The notes under the pieces: generated by a model
What the model was told of the DNA's origin: nothing
The model's input: the letters and a program-made list of their open reading frames with translations, nothing else
Database searches by the model: none
Part shown: piece by piece, positions 20,964 to 34,752 of the stretch
Position numbering within the stretch: position 1 is the stretch's first letter
Layout of the letters: each line of letters starts with the position of its first letter
Made by a program: the position numbers and the translations under genes
Source of the DNA: Thetidibacter halocola
Lineage (GTDB): Bacteria; Pseudomonadota; Alphaproteobacteria; Rhodobacterales; Rhodobacteraceae
Assembly: GCF_018224955.1 (NCBI RefSeq)
Contig: NZ_JAGTUU010000001.1
Location: 682,001 to 746,000 of the forward strand
Direction: 5' to 3'
DNA: 64,000 nucleotides

Positions 20964-22523
20964 TCAAAGGATGTCCAGGTAGACACCTGCACGATCGGCG
21001 ATATCGATGCTAAGCACATCTTCAAGCATCAAGTCGCCCGTGGCGCCATGAAAGGTCAGATCGCCGACATACATCCACGCCTGTCCATTGAAGACCAGTT
21101 GCTGGTTCTCGACTGTCCAGTTGTCGTCCTGCCCCGTGATGAAGCCATCTCCGTTGGTGTCGAGGTCCGAGATCGCGTCGATGTCCGCGCCGTTTTCGCC
21201 GCGGGCGTTGCGGAACCGAAGGATGTCTTCGCCGGCCGTGAAATCGGTGATTGTGGTCACGTCGCCCACGGCATTGCGCAGCTGCGCCGCGTCGAACTCG
21301 AACGTGTCGGCATCCGCGCCGCCGGTCAGCGTGTTGTCTCCTGCCCCGCCGCGCAGCGTGTCCTCGCCATTGCCGCCGACCAGCACGTCGTCACCGTCGT
21401 CGCCATAGGCATAGTCGTCGCCGTCGTTGCCATAGAGGCTGTCGTCGCCGTCGTTGCCATGAAGGTCATCGTCACCGTCGCCGCCATAGAGCCGGTCGTC
21501 GCCGCTGTAGCCGCGAAGCCAGTCGTTGCCGTCGCCGCCCCAGATGCTGTTCGCCCCAGCCGTGCCGAAGACCTGATCGCGCCCACCGGACCCGACGTAG
21601 TTCTCGATGCTGACCAGCGTCTCGCTGCCGCCGACATCCAGGTTGGTCGCAAAGCCGTTCTCGAGGTTCACGTTCCACCTCTGGTCGCTGTAGGAGTAGT
21701 CGACAGTGTCGTTGCCGTTGCCCCCGTTCAGCATCCCGTCGGCTCCGAGACCACCAGAAAGCCAGTCGTCGCCGTTGCCGCCCCACAGGTAGTCGGTGCC
21801 GCCTTCGCCGAACATCCGGTCGTTGCCGTCACCGCCGAACAGGTTGTCGTTGCCGCTGCCACCCAGCAGGCGATCGTGGCCCGCCCCGCCGTTGAGGACG
21901 TCGTTGCCGGCGTTGCCATACATCCAGTCGTTGCCGTCCTGTCCATAGAGCCAGTCGCTGCCGCCGTCGCCGCGCAGGTAATCGTCGCCATCGCCGCCCT
22001 CCAGCCGGTCGCGGCCGCGCCCGCCATACAGACGGTCCTGACCGTCGCCGCCGACAAGCGTGTCCTGGCCGCGGCGGCCATGCATCGTGTCGTCACCGTC
22101 GCCACCTTCCAGCCTGTTGGCAAAGTTGGTGCCCGCGATCCTGTCGTCACCGCGCGAGCCGATGGCGCTTTCAAAGCTGACCAACGTCTCGGTGCCCGGC
22201 GCCGTCAAATTCTCGGCGGTGCCGGACCGCAGGTCGATCCGGAATGCGTTCGTGGTGTAGCTGTAGTCGATCGTGTCGTGATCGGCCCCGCCGTTCAGCA
22301 CGTCGTCCTGGTCGAAGCCGCCCCGGATCGTGTCATTGCCCGACCCGCCGTAGATCGAGTCGATGCCGTAGCCGCCGTCGATGAAGTCGTCGCCCGATCC
22401 GCCAAAGATCAGGTCATTGCCCGACCAACCATAGATGGTGTCGTTCCCGGCCTGTCCAAAGATCAGGTTCTCGCCGGTGATGTCGTTGAGGAAGTCGTTC
22501 CACGCTGTGCCAACAAGTGCCAT
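20964..22523 (-). CDS. RTX calcium-binding protein (519 aa)
   Basis: A small exoprotein built almost entirely of RTX nonapeptides (GGxGxDxUx), e.g. GGDGDDYLRGDGGSDWLYG, in two large blocks (residues about 15-90 and 125-270, resuming 315-400). Each is followed by a beta-rich DYSY...NLENG.A.N segment typical of RTX spacers. Near residue 455 there is an EF-hand-like loop (DTNGDGFITGQDD). RTX proteins fold on binding Ca2+ outside the cell and leave through type I secretion. No enzymatic domain is visible, so it may be structural or an S-layer/matrix component. A TAGGAG ribosome site lies 7 nt before ATG 22523. The gene is divergent from the TolB/TPR regulator gene. Confidence 0.9.
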   Translation of the reverse strand: MALVGTAWNDFLNDITGENLIFGQAGNDTIYGWSGNDLIFGGSGDDFIDGGYGIDSIYGGSGNDTIRGGFDQDDVLNGGADHDTIDYSYTTNAFRIDLRSGTAENLTAPGTETLVSFESAIGSRGDDRIAGTNFANRLEGGDGDDTMHGRRGQDTLVGGDGQDRLYGGRGRDRLEGGDGDDYLRGDGGSDWLYGQDGNDWMYGNAGNDVLNGGAGHDRLLGGSGNDNLFGGDGNDRMFGEGGTDYLWGGNGDDWLSGGLGADGMLNGGNGNDTVDYSYSDQRWNVNLENGFATNLDVGGSETLVSIENYVGSGGRDQVFGTAGANSIWGGDGNDWLRGYSGDDRLYGGDGDDDLHGNDGDDSLYGNDGDDYAYGDDGDDVLVGGNGEDTLRGGAGDNTLTGGADADTFEFDAAQLRNAVGDVTTITDFTAGEDILRFRNARGENGADIDAISDLDTNGDGFITGQDDNWTVENQQLVFNGQAWMYVGDLTFHGATGDLMLEDVLSIDIADRAGVYLDIL

Positions 22524-24518: not shown

Positions 24519-25628
24519 ATGCCTTTCCTGCAAAGCCTTCAATCGCTCCAGTCGCTTCAATCCCTGCAGTCGCTTCAGTCGTTGCAATCCCTGCAAAGCC
24601 TTGGCGGCAGCTCTGTCAGCGGCAGTGCGTCCGGGTATCTGACAGCGCGCGACGGGATCTCGAGCCTGTGGCCCGAGGACGCACAGGTGCCCGCGCAACG
24701 CGAATTCAACGACCCGGGCAATCTGCGTGCGTGGTCCGCCTCCTCGGTTCGGGCCGTGCTCTCGGGGGAGGTCACGTCACGCCTGGCATTCGGTGCCGTC
24801 GAGGGAGAGCGCACCGTCCTCGTCCACCTCTTGCGCGCCGAAGGCACGGATACCGAAACCCCGACGCTCGGCGTGGACGTGCTTGCACGACTGACCGCCC
24901 CGGCCCCCGAGGATTTCCTGGCACAAGCGCGACTCGTCTACGACTATGCCGAATTGAGGCCGGACCGGATGGTCGAGATCCTCGACCAGACCGTCGGGAT
25001 GCTTGGCTACTTCGCGCGCCTCTTGCCGTTGGATCCCGCCCGGATGCCCCAATGCCTGCACATCCTGACACTGGCCCAGGATTGTGCTGCCCACGTCGCG
25101 CAGCACTGCAAGCACGTGCTGGCCTGCCGCCGACCGGACGCGGTCTCGGCCTCGATCCAGCCGATGATCGACACGCCGGGACACAGCACCCTGCCCAGCG
25201 GCCACGCGACCGAGGCCTTTGCCATCGCCGCGACGCTGGATCACCTCGTTCCGGTCGAGGCCCGCGCCGCCGACCTGCAGGGTCAGCTGATGGCAATGGC
25301 TGCGAGGATCGCCGTGAACCGCACGGTGGCAGGGCTGCACTTCCCCGCCGACAGCTTTGCCGGGGCCATTCTGGGATTTGCGGTGGCCGACGTGATCGCC
25401 GCGCGCGCGGGGCAACTGGATCGCGCACAGGCCGTGCAGTTTTCCGGAAAAGGCATGGGTCCCGAGGATTTCTTCACCGCGCGTGTCTGGCAAGACGGCA
25501 CACGGCACAGCTTTTCGACTCCGGATGGGATCGGCATCACCGAATTCGAGCAGGCCGGGCCGACCACCGACGTCTCGACGATCCTGGACAGGGTCTGGCA
25601 AGAAGCCCGCGCCGAATGGAGCCTTTGA
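24519..25628 (+). CDS. PAP2/vanadium-haloperoxidase superfamily protein with N-terminal Leu-Gln-Ser repeats
   Basis: A 369-residue protein. Residues 4-27 are eight exact LQS tripeptides. The C-terminal half carries the three PAP2 signatures: K198-x6-R205-P206 (KHVLACRRP), P226-S-G-H229, and R268-x5-H274-x3-D278. These are the phosphate/vanadate-binding and catalytic residues of acid phosphatases and vanadium haloperoxidases. There are no obvious membrane spans, so it looks like the soluble haloperoxidase-like branch rather than a lipid phosphatase. No classical signal peptide is seen. A GGAG site precedes ATG 24519. The stop is 1 bp from the protease start. Substrate, halide versus phosphate activity and the role of the repeat are unknown. 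Confidence 0.82.
   Translation: MPFLQSLQSLQSLQSLQSLQSLQSLQSLGGSSVSGSASGYLTARDGISSLWPEDAQVPAQREFNDPGNLRAWSASSVRAVLSGEVTSRLAFGAVEGERTVLVHLLRAEGTDTETPTLGVDVLARLTAPAPEDFLAQARLVYDYAELRPDRMVEILDQTVGMLGYFARLLPLDPARMPQCLHILTLAQDCAAHVAQHCKHVLACRRPDAVSASIQPMIDTPGHSTLPSGHATEAFAIAATLDHLVPVEARAADLQGQLMAMAARIAVNRTVAGLHFPADSFAGAILGFAVADVIAARAGQLDRAQAVQFSGKGMGPEDFFTARVWQDGTRHSFSTPDGIGITEFEQAGPTTDVSTILDRVWQEARAEWSL
24528..24599 (+). repeat. Eight 9-bp units coding (Leu-Gln-Ser)8
   Basis: The amino-acid repeat is exact, but the DNA is not: Leu uses CTG, CTT, CTC and TTG; Gln CAA and CAG; Ser AGC, TCG and TCC. Synonymous divergence with perfect peptide conservation argues for selection on the peptide rather than a recent microsatellite expansion. 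Confidence 0.95.
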
Positions 25629-25629
25629 A

Positions 25630-27621
25630 ATGGGCTATTCCCTTGTTCCGGAGCCTGCCGAAGAAGCACCCCATCCCAGGTTAGAGCCGGTCAGCGCATG
25701 GCTGTTTCGTGGACGCTCTCGATTTCTCAAGGCCGCCGGGTTGCAGCAAGCCGAGACCGCGCTTTTCACCATGCCGGTCGATGCACGTGGCTTCGATCCG
25801 TCGATCGGGGGCATGTGGCGAAACTACGCGCTGATGGACCTGCCTCTCGAGGAGAAGGCGCACTACTTCGCGGCGGAACCGCTGGAGGACAACCTGCAGC
25901 TGCTGGCCAGCGACATCCCGGCTCCGCGGGTCTACGTGCTGCCTCTGCCGCGCGACAGCATCAATCCCGATCACACCGGACTGGAACGGCCGGATATCGG
26001 GGCGCCGCTCACGGGCCGCGAGGCGCTTCCGGACACTCCGCCGAAAGCGATCATCGGGATCATCGATCACGGCATCAACATCTTTCACCGGCGCTTTCGA
26101 ACCGGCCGGTTCGGCAGCCGCATCGCCTCGGCCTGGATGCAGAGCGCGCCACGCGAAGGCGACCGCCTGCCGTTCGGCCACGAATGGCTTCGGCGTGATA
26201 TCGTTGCCGCGCAGGAGGCTCACGGCGACGACGAGGACGCGCTGCTTCGACTGATCAGCCGGGGCGCTGCTGGCATGGACCGCAGCCTTGAACACCGCGT
26301 CAGCCACGGAACCCACATTCTGGATCTTGCCGCCGGGATGGCACCGGACGACCCGCGCGGCGATGCATATCCCATCATCGCCGTGACATTGCCGCCGTCC
26401 GTCACGCGTGAGACGAGCGGTTCGATGCTGGCCCTGCCTTTTGTCCTGGGACTGGAATACATCCTCGATCGCGCCCGACGCTACATGACTGAAATGGCAG
26501 ATCCGGCACCGGTCTTCGTGAATGTCAGCTTCGGCTTGTCGGGCGGCCCGCGTCGCGGCTTGCACCGTTTGGAACAGTCCATTCACCGCATCGCCGAACG
26601 CCATGTTTCGGAACTGGCAAAGAGCCACTCGAATGGCGGACCACCCCCGCGCATTCTCGTGGCTGCGGGCAACCGCAACCGGGCCCGCGGCCATTCTCAG
26701 GCTGCGCCGGAAACCGCGCAGATGGCGGTTGTCTGGCACCTTCCACCCGCGGACCGCACATCGAATTTCCTCGAATGCCGGATCGAGACAAGGGCAAACC
26801 GGCCGCCGAGTGCGATCACCGTGCGGCTGAAACCGCCGGATCGCGATCAGGAATTGGTGCGCCGGATGGAGCGGAGCGGCGGCACCGGTTGGAGTGAGGC
26901 CAGCCTGATCACTCGCAAGGGTGCCGCGATCGGGCGCGTCTCGATACAGGATGAGGGCGGGCAACCGACAATCGTGACGGTGGCCCTCGGACCGACCGAT
27001 CCCGGCCCCGGTTCGGAGGCTGCGGCCTTGCCGGGCGACTGGCGGATCGGCGTCGAGGTTCATGGCGCCCGGGTTCTGAGGATCGATACATGGATCCTCA
27101 GAGACGATGTGCCGCCCGGATTCCGAGACAACGGACGTCAAAGCACGTTGGTGGATCAGGCCTACAGGGACCGCGACGATCGAGGGTTCCCGTTGGATGA
27201 CGATCCTGAGCAGCCCTTCAGTCAGATTCGCCGGACGGGCACGCTGAACGCGCTGGCGACGGGTGCTCTGCCCCAGGCACCGGCAACCATGCAGATCCTG
27301 GAGACTGTCGGCGCCTATCGCGGTCGGGACCCGGGGGCGATCCTGCCCAGCGGATACTCGGCTACGCCCGATTTTCTTCAGGCCGAACGCATTGACAGCA
27401 GCGCGCAGGCCGATCGCTCGGCGGTCCTGCCCGGAATCCGGGCGGCAGGCTCCCGTTCGGCGACGACCGCAGTCCTTGACGGGACAAGTGTATCCACCCC
27501 TCAAGTCCTGAGACAGCGCGCCCTCGGAGAGGGAGAATGGCTGCGCAACATGATCGATGCCGGAAACCATCGGTTGGGTGCAGCGATCCTTTCGCCCCGC
27601 CAGGAACGTGGCCGCCGGTAA
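25630..27621 (+). CDS. S8 (subtilisin-like) serine protease, 663 aa
   Basis: The catalytic residues are all visible: Asp146 in IIGIIDHGINIF, His226 in SHGTHILDLAAG, the oxyanion Asn348 in ILVAAGNRN, and Ser620 in DGTSVSTPQV. The gap of ~270 residues between Asn348 and Ser620 is long for the family and must hold an inserted domain, partly beta-rich (about residues 375-480). No signal peptide or propeptide is evident at the N-terminus MGYSLVPEPAEE, which suggests a cytosolic or unconventionally exported enzyme. ATG 25630 begins right after the PAP2 gene stop (1-bp gap), so the two are almost certainly co-translated. The client protein is unknown; the neighbouring PAP2 protein or RTX giants are candidates. 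Confidence 0.88.
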   Translation: MGYSLVPEPAEEAPHPRLEPVSAWLFRGRSRFLKAAGLQQAETALFTMPVDARGFDPSIGGMWRNYALMDLPLEEKAHYFAAEPLEDNLQLLASDIPAPRVYVLPLPRDSINPDHTGLERPDIGAPLTGREALPDTPPKAIIGIIDHGINIFHRRFRTGRFGSRIASAWMQSAPREGDRLPFGHEWLRRDIVAAQEAHGDDEDALLRLISRGAAGMDRSLEHRVSHGTHILDLAAGMAPDDPRGDAYPIIAVTLPPSVTRETSGSMLALPFVLGLEYILDRARRYMTEMADPAPVFVNVSFGLSGGPRRGLHRLEQSIHRIAERHVSELAKSHSNGGPPPRILVAAGNRNRARGHSQAAPETAQMAVVWHLPPADRTSNFLECRIETRANRPPSAITVRLKPPDRDQELVRRMERSGGTGWSEASLITRKGAAIGRVSIQDEGGQPTIVTVALGPTDPGPGSEAAALPGDWRIGVEVHGARVLRIDTWILRDDVPPGFRDNGRQSTLVDQAYRDRDDRGFPLDDDPEQPFSQIRRTGTLNALATGALPQAPATMQILETVGAYRGRDPGAILPSGYSATPDFLQAERIDSSAQADRSAVLPGIRAAGSRSATTAVLDGTSVSTPQVLRQRALGEGEWLRNMIDAGNHRLGAAILSPRQERGRR

Positions 27622-28278: not shown

Positions 28279-31200
28279 ATGATCACGCAATCCCAGCTGT
28301 TGTCGCTGGCCGACGGAATTGACCAGTCGCTGAACACCACGCAGGGCCGCATCGCGGCCGAGGTCCTGGCCGAGAGTTTCCCGCTGATCGCCGATGGCAT
28401 GGCGGATGCCGCGCAGGCCGGCGAACAGGCGCTGGAGGCGACGCGCCGCCTGGCCGAGGCGCTGCATGACGCGCTCACGCTGCTCGCCGCTGCCACCAGC
28501 CAGACCGAACAGGCGGTCGAGATCCAGTTGAACACGGCACTGGCCAATGCCGGGTTCCAGGGCACGGCGCTGTCGGTCACGGTGGTGGGCGACGAGGTGC
28601 GCATCAGCCTCGCGACCGACGCCTTCGGCAGCTATGTCCAGGACCTCGCCCCCGACCTTGGCCTCGGCCAGTTCGGCCTGGCGGGCGGCGGCACCGGGAC
28701 GCTGGAGACCGTGTTCGGCTTCGACATGGATTTCGCCACCGATTCCTCGGGCTTCTTCATCGACACTTCGGCGGCGGCGGAGATCACAATCGACCTGGCC
28801 CTGTCGGACACGCTGTTCGACCAGGTGCTGAACATCAACGGGCAGGATTTCGTCTCGGCCGATGCGGGAACGACCTTTGTCGGCAGCATCGCCATCGACA
28901 TCCAGGCGGCCGCGAACCGGCTGGGCACCGCGCAGGTGGCCAGCGCCACGATGGACGCGACCCTGACCGGCAGCGCGGGCGTTCAGGTGGGCCTGACCGC
29001 CGCCGACCAGGGCGCCATGAGTCTGCCCATCGGCGCGACCCTGTCGGTGGACTGGGATTTCGACGCCGCCGAGATCGACCCGTTCGATACCAACGCTGGC
29101 TTCGGCGACCGGCCCGACGTGCGCTTCGACACCGTCACCATCGGCCTTGGCGATTTCATGGAAGATTTCGTCGCCCCGCTGATCGAGCGCATCGACCAGC
29201 TGCTGGAACCGATCCGCCCGATCCTGACCGTGCTCACGACCTCGATCAAGGTGCTGGAGGATTTCCCCGGCCTCGGCAGCCTGTTCGATGTCACCAATGA
29301 CGGCAAGGTCAACCTGCTCGACATTCTCAAGGTGCTGTTCCCGTCGACGAACTTCACCGCCGTGAACGCCATCGTCGACCTGGCCGAGCAGGTCGTGTCC
29401 TGGGCGGATTTCCTGGCCTCGACCGGCTTTGCCGATGGCGAACTGATCCTCGGCGACATCGACCTTGGCAATATCGACATCCGCCTGCCCAGCTTCGACC
29501 TCGACTCTGTCTCGGGGCAGCTGGCGGGGATCGCCGACAACCTTCAGGACGTGCTCGACACGCTGTCCGGCGCGGGCTGGGACACCGCGGATGGCGGCAG
29601 CGGCGATACCGGCCTCGATATCCTGCAATCCATCGTCGACAACGACATCTTCGACCTGCCGGTGCTGGACGATCCGACGCAATGGATCAACCTGATCGTC
29701 GGCAGGCCTGCCGACCTGATCTATATCGACCTGCCGGAACTGGTTCTTGGCGACCGCAGCGATCCCATCGAAATCCTCTCCCTGCCGATCATCCCGCTGG
29801 TCTTTCTCAAGGTGACGGCCGCGGTCGAGGCGGTCATCAACTTCGACTTCGGCTTTGACACGCGCGGCTTGCTGGACCCGGCGCGCCCGGCCATCGACGG
29901 CTTCTACATCGTCGATCTGCCCGACGAGTCCGAGATCACGCTCTATTCCTCGATCGGGCTGGGCGTATCGCTGGACCTTCTGCTGGCCGAGGCCTATGGC
30001 GGCGGCGACATCGCGGGCGAGATCGAGCTGGACCTGAACTCGGGCAGTACCGAAGGCAAGCTCTACTACGACGAATTCATCGCGGCGGTGAATTCCAACC
30101 CCTTCGCGATCTTCGACGCCTCGGGCTCGATCACTGCGGGGTTCACCGCCTATGTCGACACGCTGTTCGGCGAGATCTGGCGCTGGGAAAGCCCGCGCAT
30201 CACGCTGGGCGGCTTCGGCTTCGACGAGACGGGGACGGCCGTGGTCGGCACTGTCTCGGGCGGGACGCTGACACTCTTTACCGGTGGACGGGCGGATCAG
30301 CGCACGAACGGCGCGCTGATCGGCGACGTGGCCGAGATCATCACCATCGCGCCCAAGGTGACCGGCGGGATCGCGGTGACGGTCCTTGGCATGTCGCAGG
30401 AATTCACCGGCGTCACCGACATCACCGGCAACGGCCAGACCGGCGACGACCAGCTTGTCGTCGACCCGACGCTGGTCATCCCGGTCAACTTCTGGGGCGG
30501 CGAAGGCAATGACGGCCTGTCGGGCGGCGCGGGCGACGACACGTTCTTCGGCGGCTTGGGCGACGACGCGCTGATCGGCAATGATGGCGACGATTCCCTG
30601 ACCGGCGCCCTGGGCGACGATTATCTCGAGGGCGGCGCCGGGGCCGACACGATCAACGGCGGCGAAGGCAACGACTGGGTCAGCTATCGCACCAGCGACG
30701 CGGCCGTGGATATCGACCTGTCCGCAGCCACCCAGTCGGGCGGCGATGCGCAGGGCGACGAGCTGTTTGCCATCGAGAATATCGACGGCAGCGAGCACGG
30801 AGACAGCATCGTGGGCTCGCAGGGCGCCGGCAGCTTCTTTGGCCGGGGCGGCGACGACCTGATGACCGGCGGCACCCACGTGCAATACCTGTTCGGCAAT
30901 GATGGCGACGACACGATGGAGGCCTCGGTCGCGGGCAGCGTTCTGGCAGGCGGCGAAGGCGACGACCTCTACATCGTGCGCGCTGCAGGGATGCTGGTGG
31001 GCGAGAATTTCCTGTCCGAGATCGCCGCAGGATCAGACAGCGGCCATGACAGCGTCGAGGCCTATGTCAGCATCGACCTGCGCGGCACCGACGAGCACAT
31101 CGAGGACATCCAGCTTTTCGGGTCGGCCCTGACCGCCCATGCCAACGGCCTGGACAACCTGATCGAGGGCAACAGCCGCGACAACGGTCTTTACGGCTAT

Positions 31201-34200
31201 GGCGGCGACGACACGATCCGCGGCTATGCCGGCAAGGACACGCTGTATGGCCATGACGGCAACGACCTGCTGGCGGGCGGCGACGGCGATGACGAGTTGC
31301 GCGGCGGTTCCGGCGACGACATCCTCAACGGCCTCGATGGCGAGGACAATCTCTTCGGTGACGACGGCGACGACACGGTCACGGGCGGCTTCGGCTTTGA
31401 CACGCTGCGCGGCGGCGCGGGGGCCGACGAGCTGCTGGGCGGGTTCGACGCGGATTTCTACATCGTCGACAGCGACGACACGGTCTACGAGATCAACGGC
31501 GGCGGCATCGATTTCGTCTGGGCGGACGAGGATCACGCCCTCTTGGCTGGGCAGGAAATCGAGGTCCTGTCGGCCTATTCCTGGGAGGGGATCCTTGCCG
31601 CGATCACCGCGACGCTGATCAACGACACCCGCACGGGATACGAGGGACTGGCCCAGTTGATCGGCGTGAACGGTATCCTCGGCGCCACGCCGACCGTGGC
31701 GCTGACCGGTAACGAACGCGCGCAGCTGATCATCGGCGAGACCGGCGACAGCGACATCGTCGCCTTCCGCAACGTGCTGGAGGGGATGGATGGCGCCGAC
31801 ACGATCCTGGGCGACGACCGGGACGACGTGGCGCAATACCTGGCCTCGGACGCCGCGGTGCAGATCGACCTGTCGCAAGAGATCCAGTCCGGCGGCCATG
31901 CCGAGGGCGATCGGCTGATCCGCATCCACAACATCATCGGCTCGGCCCATGACGACACCATCCTGGGCGAGGATGCCGCCGCCTCGGGCGGCGCGATCCC
32001 GGCCGCCGACAACCTCTTCGAGGGGCGTGGCGGCAACGACCTGCTCGAGGGGCTCGACGGGTTCGACACGCTGCTGGGCGGCTGGGGGGCCGACACGCTC
32101 AAGGGCGGCAACGAAGACGACGACCTGCAGGGCGAAGGCGGCGCCGACAGCCTCGAGGGCGGCAACGGCAACGACACGCTGGACGGCGGCGCGGGTATCG
32201 ACGTGCTGGATGGCGGGGCCGGAGACGACCTCTATTACGTGACGCTGCTGGACGACATCTTCGATTCCTCGGGCGACGACACGGCCATCGCAACCACCGA
32301 CTACACGCTGAACGCGGGGGCCGAGGTCGAGCGGCTGGAGGCCTCGACCGACACCGACGACGACCTGATCCTTTTCGGCAACACCTTTGCCCAATGGATC
32401 GCGGGCAATGCGGGCGACAATTTCCTGCATGGCGGCGCCGGGGCCGACACGATCCAGGGCCGCGCGGGGCAGGACACGGCGGGCTACACCCTGTCGCTGG
32501 CCCCGGTCGATGTCGACCTGAACCGTGCGGTGCAATCGGGCGGCCACGCCGAGGGCGACGAACTGATCGGGATCGAGAACCTCTCGGGCTCGGGTTTCGG
32601 CGACGTGCTGGTGGGCCTGACCACGGTGCGCGGCGACGGGCTGGAGGACAACCGCCACGCGGGCCTGGCGGGCGACGACTGGATCGAGGACACGATCGGC
32701 ACCAACACGCTCGAGGGCGGGTTCGGCGACGACACGCTGGTGGGCAGCGGCACCGAGGCGCTGGTGGCGGGCGCAGGCAGCCTGCTGCTGGGCGGCGCGG
32801 GCAACGACAGTCTCGATGCCGGGGTCTCGACCAACACGGGCGGCGACACGCTGGCGGGCGGCATGGGCGACGACATCTACCGCGTGACCTCGGCGGGCGA
32901 CGTGGTGGACGAGAACTGGGCCGGCGACATCGCCGAGGGTGCCGATGGCGGGCACGACACGCTCATCAGCGACGTGACCGTCTGGAACATGGAGACCCCC
33001 GGCCAGGCCAGCATCGAGGATGCCGAGCTGGGCCTGGGCCGCGACCTTCTGGCCAACGCGCTGGACAACCACGTCACCGGCAACGACCTCGACAACGATC
33101 TGACCGGGCGCGAGGGCAACGACACGCTGCTCGGCCGGCTGGGCAACGACACGCTGCGCGGCGGCCTGGGCGACGACAACCTGAATGGCGGCGCGGGCGA
33201 CGACCAGATGATCGGCTGGGCGGGCGACGACCTCTATATCGTCGACTCGGCGGGCGACGTGGTGATGGAGGCGGCGGGCAACGGCACCGACACGGTGCGC
33301 TCCAGCGTCGATCACACCCTGGCCGACGAGGTCGAGGTGCTGGTCCTCACCGGGACCGACGACATCGATGGCACCGGCAACGCGCTGGACAACCGGCTGG
33401 AGGGCAACACGGGCGCCAACCTCCTGAGCGGCGGCGAAGGCAACGACACGCTCAACGGTGGCGCAGGGGTCGACACGCTGCGCGGCGGGTTGGGCGACGA
33501 CGTCTTTGCCCCCGAGGGGCTGGACGAGATCGACAGCATCACCGGCGGCGACGGCATCGACCTGCTGGACATGACGCTGCACACGGGCGGCGCGCTGACC
33601 GCCGACCTCGCGGCAGAGACCTATACCGTCGGCGGCCCCGGCGGGGTGCAGACCATCCGCAGCGTCGAGAACATCATCGCCACCGGCGAGGGCGACGCGG
33701 TGACCGGAAACGAGGCCGCCAACCGCTTCGAGGGGCGCGCGGGCGCCGACACGATGGCGGGTGGCGCGGGCGACGACTGGCTCGACGGAGAGGCGGGGAC
33801 GGATTCGCTCGATGGCGGTGACGGCAATGACACCATTCTTGGCGGCAATGGCCACGACACGCTGTTCGGCCGGGCGGGCGACGACTCGCTGCTGGGCGGC
33901 GGCGGCCGCGACGAGATCCGTGCCGGCGACGGGTTCGACAGCCTCTATGGCGAGGACGGCGACGACTGGCTGATCGGCGGCAACGACGCCGACTTCGCCG
34001 AGGGCGGCACGGGCGACGACACGCTCAGCGGGAATGACGGCAACGACAATCTGATCGGCGGCGAGGGCAACGACCTGTTCTACGGCGGCAGCGGCAACGA
34101 CACCCTGACCGGCGAGGCCGGAGACGACACCGCCTATGGCGGCGGCGGGCGCGACCGGCTGACCGGCCTCGACGGCAATGACACTCTGTTCGGCGGCAAC

Positions 34201-34752
34201 GGCCAGGATTCGCTGTATGGCGGCGCGGGCACCGACAATCTGGTTGGCGGCGGCGGACAGGACCTGATTTTTGGCGGCGACGAGGACGACACGCTCTTGG
34301 GACAGGCCGGGCGCGACACACTGTTCGGTGGCGCGGGCGACGACCTGCTGTCCGGCGGGACCGAGGCCGACAGTCTGACGGGCGGCGACGGCGACGACAG
34401 CCTGCATGGCGGCACCGGGCCGGACGTGCTGACCGGCGGCATGGGGGCGGATGTCTTCGTCTTCAGCACGGTGGCCGACAGCCCGCCGACGCAGGCCGAC
34501 CGGATCACCGATTTCGAGACCGGGATCGACCGGATCGACCTGGCCGCGATCGACGCCGATATTGCTACAGGCACTGACGACTCCTTTGCTTTCATCGGCA
34601 CCGGCGCCTTCACTGCCGCGGGGCAGCTGCGCTTTGGTACCAACGGCACGGACGGGCTGTTGCAGGGCGACGTTGACGGCGACGGGAACGCCGACCTGTC
34701 CATCCTGCTCGAAGGCGTGACGGCACTGACCCCCGGCGATGTAATCCTTTGA
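28279..34752 (+). CDS. Giant RTX exoprotein (2157 aa)
   Basis: Residues about 1-740 form an unassigned, beta-rich N-terminal region containing a dockerin/EF-hand-like loop (DVTNDGKVNLLDIL, about residue 337). From about 745 to 2050 there are repeated clusters of RTX nonapeptides (GGxGxDxL), separated by spacers with the recurrent D.SAAVQIDLS/IQSGGHAEGD..I.IENI pattern. The C-terminus (ADRITDFETGIDRIDL ... DGNADLSILLEGV) is the classic serralysin-like C-terminal module that precedes a type I secretion signal. It is therefore predicted to be exported by an ABC/MFP/OMP transporter and to fold on Ca2+. No catalytic motif was seen. AAGGAA precedes ATG 28279. No secretion genes adjoin it. Confidence 0.92.
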   Translation: MITQSQLLSLADGIDQSLNTTQGRIAAEVLAESFPLIADGMADAAQAGEQALEATRRLAEALHDALTLLAAATSQTEQAVEIQLNTALANAGFQGTALSVTVVGDEVRISLATDAFGSYVQDLAPDLGLGQFGLAGGGTGTLETVFGFDMDFATDSSGFFIDTSAAAEITIDLALSDTLFDQVLNINGQDFVSADAGTTFVGSIAIDIQAAANRLGTAQVASATMDATLTGSAGVQVGLTAADQGAMSLPIGATLSVDWDFDAAEIDPFDTNAGFGDRPDVRFDTVTIGLGDFMEDFVAPLIERIDQLLEPIRPILTVLTTSIKVLEDFPGLGSLFDVTNDGKVNLLDILKVLFPSTNFTAVNAIVDLAEQVVSWADFLASTGFADGELILGDIDLGNIDIRLPSFDLDSVSGQLAGIADNLQDVLDTLSGAGWDTADGGSGDTGLDILQSIVDNDIFDLPVLDDPTQWINLIVGRPADLIYIDLPELVLGDRSDPIEILSLPIIPLVFLKVTAAVEAVINFDFGFDTRGLLDPARPAIDGFYIVDLPDESEITLYSSIGLGVSLDLLLAEAYGGGDIAGEIELDLNSGSTEGKLYYDEFIAAVNSNPFAIFDASGSITAGFTAYVDTLFGEIWRWESPRITLGGFGFDETGTAVVGTVSGGTLTLFTGGRADQRTNGALIGDVAEIITIAPKVTGGIAVTVLGMSQEFTGVTDITGNGQTGDDQLVVDPTLVIPVNFWGGEGNDGLSGGAGDDTFFGGLGDDALIGNDGDDSLTGALGDDYLEGGAGADTINGGEGNDWVSYRTSDAAVDIDLSAATQSGGDAQGDELFAIENIDGSEHGDSIVGSQGAGSFFGRGGDDLMTGGTHVQYLFGNDGDDTMEASVAGSVLAGGEGDDLYIVRAAGMLVGENFLSEIAAGSDSGHDSVEAYVSIDLRGTDEHIEDIQLFGSALTAHANGLDNLIEGNSRDNGLYGYGGDDTIRGYAGKDTLYGHDGNDLLAGGDGDDELRGGSGDDILNGLDGEDNLFGDDGDDTVTGGFGFDTLRGGAGADELLGGFDADFYIVDSDDTVYEINGGGIDFVWADEDHALLAGQEIEVLSAYSWEGILAAITATLINDTRTGYEGLAQLIGVNGILGATPTVALTGNERAQLIIGETGDSDIVAFRNVLEGMDGADTILGDDRDDVAQYLASDAAVQIDLSQEIQSGGHAEGDRLIRIHNIIGSAHDDTILGEDAAASGGAIPAADNLFEGRGGNDLLEGLDGFDTLLGGWGADTLKGGNEDDDLQGEGGADSLEGGNGNDTLDGGAGIDVLDGGAGDDLYYVTLLDDIFDSSGDDTAIATTDYTLNAGAEVERLEASTDTDDDLILFGNTFAQWIAGNAGDNFLHGGAGADTIQGRAGQDTAGYTLSLAPVDVDLNRAVQSGGHAEGDELIGIENLSGSGFGDVLVGLTTVRGDGLEDNRHAGLAGDDWIEDTIGTNTLEGGFGDDTLVGSGTEALVAGAGSLLLGGAGNDSLDAGVSTNTGGDTLAGGMGDDIYRVTSAGDVVDENWAGDIAEGADGGHDTLISDVTVWNMETPGQASIEDAELGLGRDLLANALDNHVTGNDLDNDLTGREGNDTLLGRLGNDTLRGGLGDDNLNGGAGDDQMIGWAGDDLYIVDSAGDVVMEAAGNGTDTVRSSVDHTLADEVEVLVLTGTDDIDGTGNALDNRLEGNTGANLLSGGEGNDTLNGGAGVDTLRGGLGDDVFAPEGLDEIDSITGGDGIDLLDMTLHTGGALTADLAAETYTVGGPGGVQTIRSVENIIATGEGDAVTGNEAANRFEGRAGADTMAGGAGDDWLDGEAGTDSLDGGDGNDTILGGNGHDTLFGRAGDDSLLGGGGRDEIRAGDGFDSLYGEDGDDWLIGGNDADFAEGGTGDDTLSGNDGNDNLIGGEGNDLFYGGSGNDTLTGEAGDDTAYGGGGRDRLTGLDGNDTLFGGNGQDSLYGGAGTDNLVGGGGQDLIFGGDEDDTLLGQAGRDTLFGGAGDDLLSGGTEADSLTGGDGDDSLHGGTGPDVLTGGMGADVFVFSTVADSPPTQADRITDFETGIDRIDLAAIDADIATGTDDSFAFIGTGAFTAAGQLRFGTNGTDGLLQGDVDGDGNADLSILLEGVTALTPGDVIL

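Follow-up and report, generated by a model that had tools for sequence, protein, structure and literature searches.

The perfect tandem peptide repeat located at the N-terminus of a PAP2 protein in the window (the whole 64,000-nucleotide stretch of DNA analyzed here) is part of a conserved three-gene module, in which the arrayed protein is accompanied by a TPR regulator and a protease lacking a visible signal peptide. Within this module, the arrays are perfectly repeated and held by purifying selection at the peptide level, neighboring units avoid sharing codons, the array unit is hypervariable between lineages, and the enzyme active sites are conserved. Our preferred, yet tentative, explanation is that the array constitutes a multi-copy cognate peptide, which the protease would cleave and the TPR regulator would sense, in a manner resembling RRNPPA systems or yeast alpha-factor, with the module being related to neither. 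No description of the module was found in the literature, PADLOC, or NCBIfam. None of its three proteins matches a PADLOC defence model, and public annotation is generic (winged helix-turn-helix or cyclase domain protein, phosphatase PAP2 family protein, and S8 family serine peptidase).

Table 1. Coordinates of the module genes, the array, and other repeat-rich genes of the window
Feature	Positions	Strand	Description
Repeat-rich ORF, 3574 aa	8699-19423	-	By eye, stretches resembling FG-GAP and cadherin; apparently large and extracellular
RTX calcium-binding nonapeptide repeat protein	20964-22523	-	Flanks the module
Regulator, 546 aa	22845-24485	+	Winged helix at the N-terminus, TolB/FlgO-like domain in the middle, TPR superhelix (about 260-546) at the C-terminus
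Arrayed PAP2 protein, 369 aa	24519-25628	+	Disordered array plus folded class A acid phosphatase-like domain
(Leu-Gln-Ser)8-Leu array	24528-24602	+	PAP2 residues 4-28, with scrambled synonymous codons
Subtilase (S8), about 663 aa from Met at 25630	25630-27621	+	Without visible signal peptide
RTX calcium-binding nonapeptide repeat protein	28279-34752	+	Flanks the module

A constant module with interchangeable parts

Homologs were drawn from same-family relatives, 80 public-genome loci, and a set of 397 additional genomes of the family, 102 of which contained a match. In an all-against-all comparison of the ORFs of 81 loci, the PAP2 gene was present in all 81, the regulator was located directly upstream in 79, and the S8 gene was located directly downstream in 79. 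No further constant neighbor was found in these 81 loci, the next families being far rarer. RTX-type neighbors such as those of the window (Table 1) are present in just 9 of the 81. Loci lacking the first regulator subfamily encode a SARP-like second subfamily (43/44), mostly on the opposite strand, and subfamilies with other gene orders retain all three genes. The first-pass annotation had linked the array to the adjoining subtilase, and a protease gene is indeed found beside nearly every copy, with protease recognition itself surviving solely as one of the rival explanations considered below. Its account of the array was sound, but incomplete with regard to the module, as it did not mention the upstream TPR regulator, a partner as constant as the protease.

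The regulator winged helix gives ToxR-like matches, while in many relatives the N-terminus is a class III nucleotide cyclase instead. A Crp/Fnr gene lies beside cyclase-type modules in L199 and L230 (Roseibium aggregatum plasmid), suggesting a cyclic-nucleotide output for such regulators. The protease of the window carries the catalytic Asp, His, and Ser of subtilases; it has no Pfam match itself, but its distant relatives match Pfam S8. Among the relatives, the catalytic D and H and the oxyanion N are present in 143 of 143 proteins and the catalytic S in 137, the other six being gapped at this position. Distant members have a divergent S8 as their protease or, in L198 (1211-2164) and L203 (4692-5708), a papain-type C1 enzyme. 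L198 and L203 also have an unusual NGG[I/M] tetrapeptide array in common. The exchangeability of both the output domain and the protease family suggests that what the module requires is sensing and proteolysis.

The arrayed PAP2 protein

The PAP2 ORF starts at an ATG (24519) with GGAGA upstream and opens ATG-CCT-TTC (Met-Pro-Phe), followed by eight LQS units (24528-24599) and an extra Leu (24600-24602). Its C-terminal domain is phosphatase-like, judging from both its sequence and its predicted structure. The Pfam PAP2 family (PF01569) matches residues about 190-293 (E=1.4e-12), the catalytic motifs K-x6-RP, PSGH, and R-x5-H-x3-D are all present, and an AlphaFold2 model built on a 36-sequence alignment is confident (pLDDT 89.6), with the acid phosphatase 7f17 as its top Foldseek match (E=6.5e-6). 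Pfam, conserved columns, and Foldseek all place the fold and motifs within the class A acid phosphatase superfamily; acid phosphatases outrank haloperoxidases in Foldseek, with the active site being common to phosphatases and vanadium haloperoxidases. In this model, the array is disordered (pLDDT <50). No signal peptide is visible on the arrayed protein. Compared with class A bacterial acid phosphatases and the PAP2 superfamily, it exhibits the same C-terminal fold and catalytic motifs, but an N-terminal array replaces the signal peptide and the module context differs.

Selection keeps the peptide repeat and avoids the DNA repeat

The eight LQS units read, in order, CTGCAAAGC CTTCAATCG CTCCAGTCG CTTCAATCC CTGCAGTCG CTTCAGTCG TTGCAATCC CTGCAAAGC. 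The first and last of these 9-bp units are identical, leaving seven distinct ones among the eight, and serine is encoded by AGC in two units and by TCN in six, confirming the first-pass description of an exact (LQS)8 N-terminus with scrambled synonymous codons. Between neighboring units, 17 of 22 codons are unlike, compared to 12.5 expected from codon usage. A chance origin of the array is rejected, as the perfect repeat spans 24 residues.

Where a codon deviates from the majority codon in a set of 136 non-redundant arrays, the change is synonymous in 1843 cases and non-synonymous in 43, and the selection at the peptide level that had been claimed from the window is strong. This synonymous excess and the codon scrambling also bear out the earlier claim that the LQS array is no young slippage product. 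Adjacent units exhibit 2407 codon differences versus 2116.5 in column shuffles (sd 23.3, z=12.5), with 117 arrays above expectation and 18 below, and a control using the same amino acid three residues apart elsewhere in the operon reveals no effect (ratio 0.98 vs 1.19). Neighboring units share fewer codons than chance would yield, and DNA repetition is therefore avoided while peptide repetition is kept. Units two or three positions apart resemble each other slightly more than expected (lag 2, z=-4.9; lag 3, z=-3.8), and lag 4 is neutral. Duplication of 18-bp blocks was rejected as a source of artefact, since the excess persists in 57 arrays without lag-2 likeness (z=5.8). The dissimilarity of the DNA copies should slow the loss or gain of copies. 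Synonymous codon choice is known to avoid unstable DNA repeats, with selection for stability having been described for mononucleotide runs (PMC1378130). Synonymous codons avoid DNA repeats in both cases, but in the module this concerns 9-bp units within perfect peptide repeats rather than mononucleotide runs.

A few young arrays that are DNA-identical or nearly so can be found in Burkholderiales (YSGG in L065, SGI in L074, and SGGY in L093), which indicates that arrays are born by local duplication. A genome-wide mutational habit was rejected: in a scan covering the neighboring DNA of the loci, the only other array of at least five units resides on a second PAP2 protein (L097), and a check of the window's own genome for LQS found no second LQS array. 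L097 and L157 represent a single Rhodobacteraceae MAG, in one locus of which a stretch of about 6 kb holds both a PAP2 gene with (SAY)10 and one with the dipeptide array (GS)20. One genome also has a second arrayed PAP2 gene of a different unit, (NHQ)6, at G000:C17:413908-414957 (L019, L112).

Array units differ between lineages and are replaced as a whole

Nearly all homologs begin with a short tandem peptide repeat a few residues from a Met, even relatives matched at E about 1e-31. On about 160 PAP2 proteins from well over a hundred bacteria, distant members included, there are 101 distinct units with periods of 2-6 residues, mostly 3. Arrays were called automatically in 145 of 150 proteins (123 with a period of 3; medians of 9 copies and 28 residues), and among the exceptions inspected, L068 is truncated at a contig edge, whereas L060 and L061 have imperfect repeats. 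Homologs devoid of the repeat, which would have refuted the function proposed in the first-pass annotation, were not seen, with the one clear exception of L178, which has no recognizable array.

The tripeptide units include LQS (Sedimentitalea, Tateyamaria, and the window only), QAT, GGV, GGI, GGA, TGW, TAM, VSG, NGD, GAY, SAY, NSF, GHE, GKE, GTQ, AGR, RAQ, MGH, NAK, SSD, LEG, ENW, and DAR, in addition to which there are tetrapeptides (LGGG, MSSG, SAGV, and NGGM), dipeptides (GS, GQ, and SR), and one pentapeptide. Cys occurs in none of the 101 units and Pro in one. Their chemistry is diverse, with a net charge of -1 to +1 per unit and a mean hydropathy of -3.4 to +2.1, and several clades keep a chemical class of unit (aromatic-ended, amide/acid-ended, or aliphatic). 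Conservation of LQS itself across homologs was not borne out, given that only Sedimentitalea and Tateyamaria share it. As LQS is confined to close relatives and the other homologs use other units, the suggestion of a fixed targeting tag is dropped.

The same unit is found in all pairs exceeding 95% enzyme-domain identity and in 45% of the pairs at 85-95%, and the unit may change in every copy with the enzyme domain still 85-94% identical. Examples of whole-array replacement include SGV/TGL at 89% enzyme identity, SAGV/SGGY at 94%, and the Microvirga loci L038 and L056, whose GGV and GGI arrays are equal in length and unlike in every unit, while their enzyme domains are 91% identical. No strain-level unit polymorphism was found among 11 Phaeobacter plasmids, in which the unit is always NSF and copy number alone varies (5-7). 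The Phaeobacter inhibens M647 plasmid (L227) retains an intact array, but its annotation splits the regulator into two ORFs and lists no full-length S8 gene.

The array unit covaries with the TPR domain in R->P->S operons

In close pairs whose units are radically unlike, strong divergence is seen in the TPR part at the C-terminus of the regulator, but not in its N-terminus or in S8. For example, the Polaromonas loci L049 and L053 (units AGY and LTG) exhibit 91% identity in the regulator N-terminus and 93% in S8, but only 60% in the TPR. Among 112 triads, the partial correlation between TPR identity and unit similarity, conditioned on PAP2, S8, and regulator N-terminus identity, increases with relatedness (0.19, 0.32, 0.56, and 0.70), with the taxon permutation used in these tests ignoring phylogeny. 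When 51 windows over the three proteins were compared, TPR windows ranked top in R->P->S operons, i.e., those encoding the regulator, the arrayed PAP2, and S8 in that order. The 31 loci with a divergent arrangement yield a weak signal for the TPR (r 0 to 0.22, P 0.07-0.5); there, the windows that covary best with the unit are those of S8.

It is also evident that, in R->P->S operons, the array adjoins the 3' end of the regulator, where synonymous identity falls too, so allele exchange and linkage could produce the covariation. The TPR was rejected as the unique determinant of the unit: TPR-based nearest neighbors do not outperform those based on the regulator N-terminus or the PAP2 domain in predicting the unit, and a first independent-pair test, which scored GAY and YGGQGA as radical changes, did not reach significance (P=0.27). 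Due to these linkage caveats and failed tests, we refer to the block as hypervariable and infer, rather than assert, recognition by the TPR.

Discussion

The constancy of the module, its interchangeable parts, the selection acting upon the array, whole-array replacement, and the covariation within R->P->S operons all lend support to the multi-copy peptide explanation. The adjacent cytosolic protease would cut the array into short identical peptides, which the concave TPR surface of the co-encoded regulator would read, either free or still tethered. Reading would then switch the output domain, a DNA-binding winged helix here and a nucleotide cyclase in many relatives. Each lineage would have its own peptide word, with the copies presumably kept identical because only the matching word is read. 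We infer cleavage, TPR binding, and signaling from the patterns described above. The multi-copy peptide explanation covers most of the facts, but accounts for neither the enzyme domain nor the lack of export; no export signal is visible, which counts against it. The unit length of 2-6 residues combined with very diverse chemistry is also unfavorable to it, as is the presence of the same unit throughout 11 Phaeobacter plasmids, where no strain-level pherotypes were seen.

Several other explanations deserve consideration. Firstly, the array might be only a cleavage or docking sequence for a protease that activates or degrades PAP2, its repetition supplying many cut sites, while the regulator merely controls expression. 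This is unlikely. The protease is a near-constant partner with an intact catalytic site, an S1 pocket would call for the clade-wise chemical class of the units, and S8 windows come first in the divergent subset, but one site would be enough, which leaves the perfect identity of 5-20 copies over; furthermore, the TPR protein is an equally constant partner and the AGY and LTG units of L049 and L053 differ at 93% S8 identity. Secondly, it is rather improbable that an uncleaved array acts as a tethered ligand docking PAP2 on the regulator TPR groove (anti-activation or recruitment), with the protease breaking the link. Such a ligand would require neither export nor free short peptides, TPR folds bind linear tails, and the covariation evidence applies as it does for a multi-copy peptide, but so does the linkage caveat. 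No more probable is a role as a polyvalent tail of low complexity, serving assembly, phase separation, or spacing of the enzyme through homotypic contacts between identical units. The array is disordered in the model, many units are Gly/Ala/Ser-rich and some contain aromatics, and homogeneous units would permit register-free pairing. However, the chemistry is not conserved (GGI, SSD, GKE, DAR, LQS, and GS), like-charged arrays such as SSD would repel, and the protease and TPR partners are not accounted for. Lastly, a functionless slippage product that happens to follow the start codon, for which one could cite the young arrays of L065, L074, and L093 and the 5-7 copies among Phaeobacter strains, is highly implausible and already contradicted by the codon statistics (synonymous to non-synonymous 43:1, adjacent codons differing beyond chance) and by the distribution of arrays, which recur in nearly all relatives and otherwise appear in the neighboring DNA solely on a second PAP2 protein.

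RRNPPA proteins (Rap, Rgg, NprR, PlcR, PrgX, and AimR) are cytosolic TPR sensors encoded beside short lineage-specific peptide genes, and the TPR superhelices of known families bind short peptides (PMC9765709). Like these, the module regulator combines a C-terminal TPR superhelix with a variable N-terminal output domain, but it is without the RRNPPA HTH/three-helix bundle, having instead a winged helix or class III cyclase together with a TolB/FlgO-like domain. There is also no small secreted and re-imported propeptide; the repeat forms the N-terminal end of an enzyme-like protein of 369 aa, on which the peptide is repeated many times without a secretion signal and with a co-encoded protease. 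Unlike RRNPPA, the module is found in Alphaproteobacteria and Burkholderiales. Peptide binding in the TPR groove, as in RRNPPA, is putative, with covariation as its evidence and linkage as a confounder. The yeast alpha-factor precursor MFalpha1 carries identical tandem copies, the number of which differs between isolates (PMC5850478). As in multi-copy pheromone precursors, the copies within the arrays are identical, under purifying selection, and lineage-specific, but MFalpha1 is a secreted eukaryotic precursor, whereas the arrays consist of spacer-less units of 2-6 residues fused to a folded enzyme. In staphylococcal agr and Bacillus comQXP, the sensor part of the receptor and the peptide form a hypervariable block between conserved flanks. 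The module has a similar block, but here linkage is not separated from function, and there is neither a histidine kinase nor a cyclic or prenylated peptide.

We found no known protein family into which these approximately 100 perfect words, all occupying one position in orthologous enzymes, would fit. Possibly, they reflect a widespread proteobacterial system of signaling or self-recognition, in which a repeated word, encoded by codon-scrambled DNA and subject to whole-array replacement, would be cut by a cytosolic protease and read by a TPR sensor. If the TPR reads these words, the module would represent a new class of peptide signaling in Gram-negative bacteria, with natural ligand-receptor pairs ready at hand. 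Even if it does not, the arrays offer a natural example, unusual in its clarity, of selection favoring repetition in the peptide and opposing it in the DNA.
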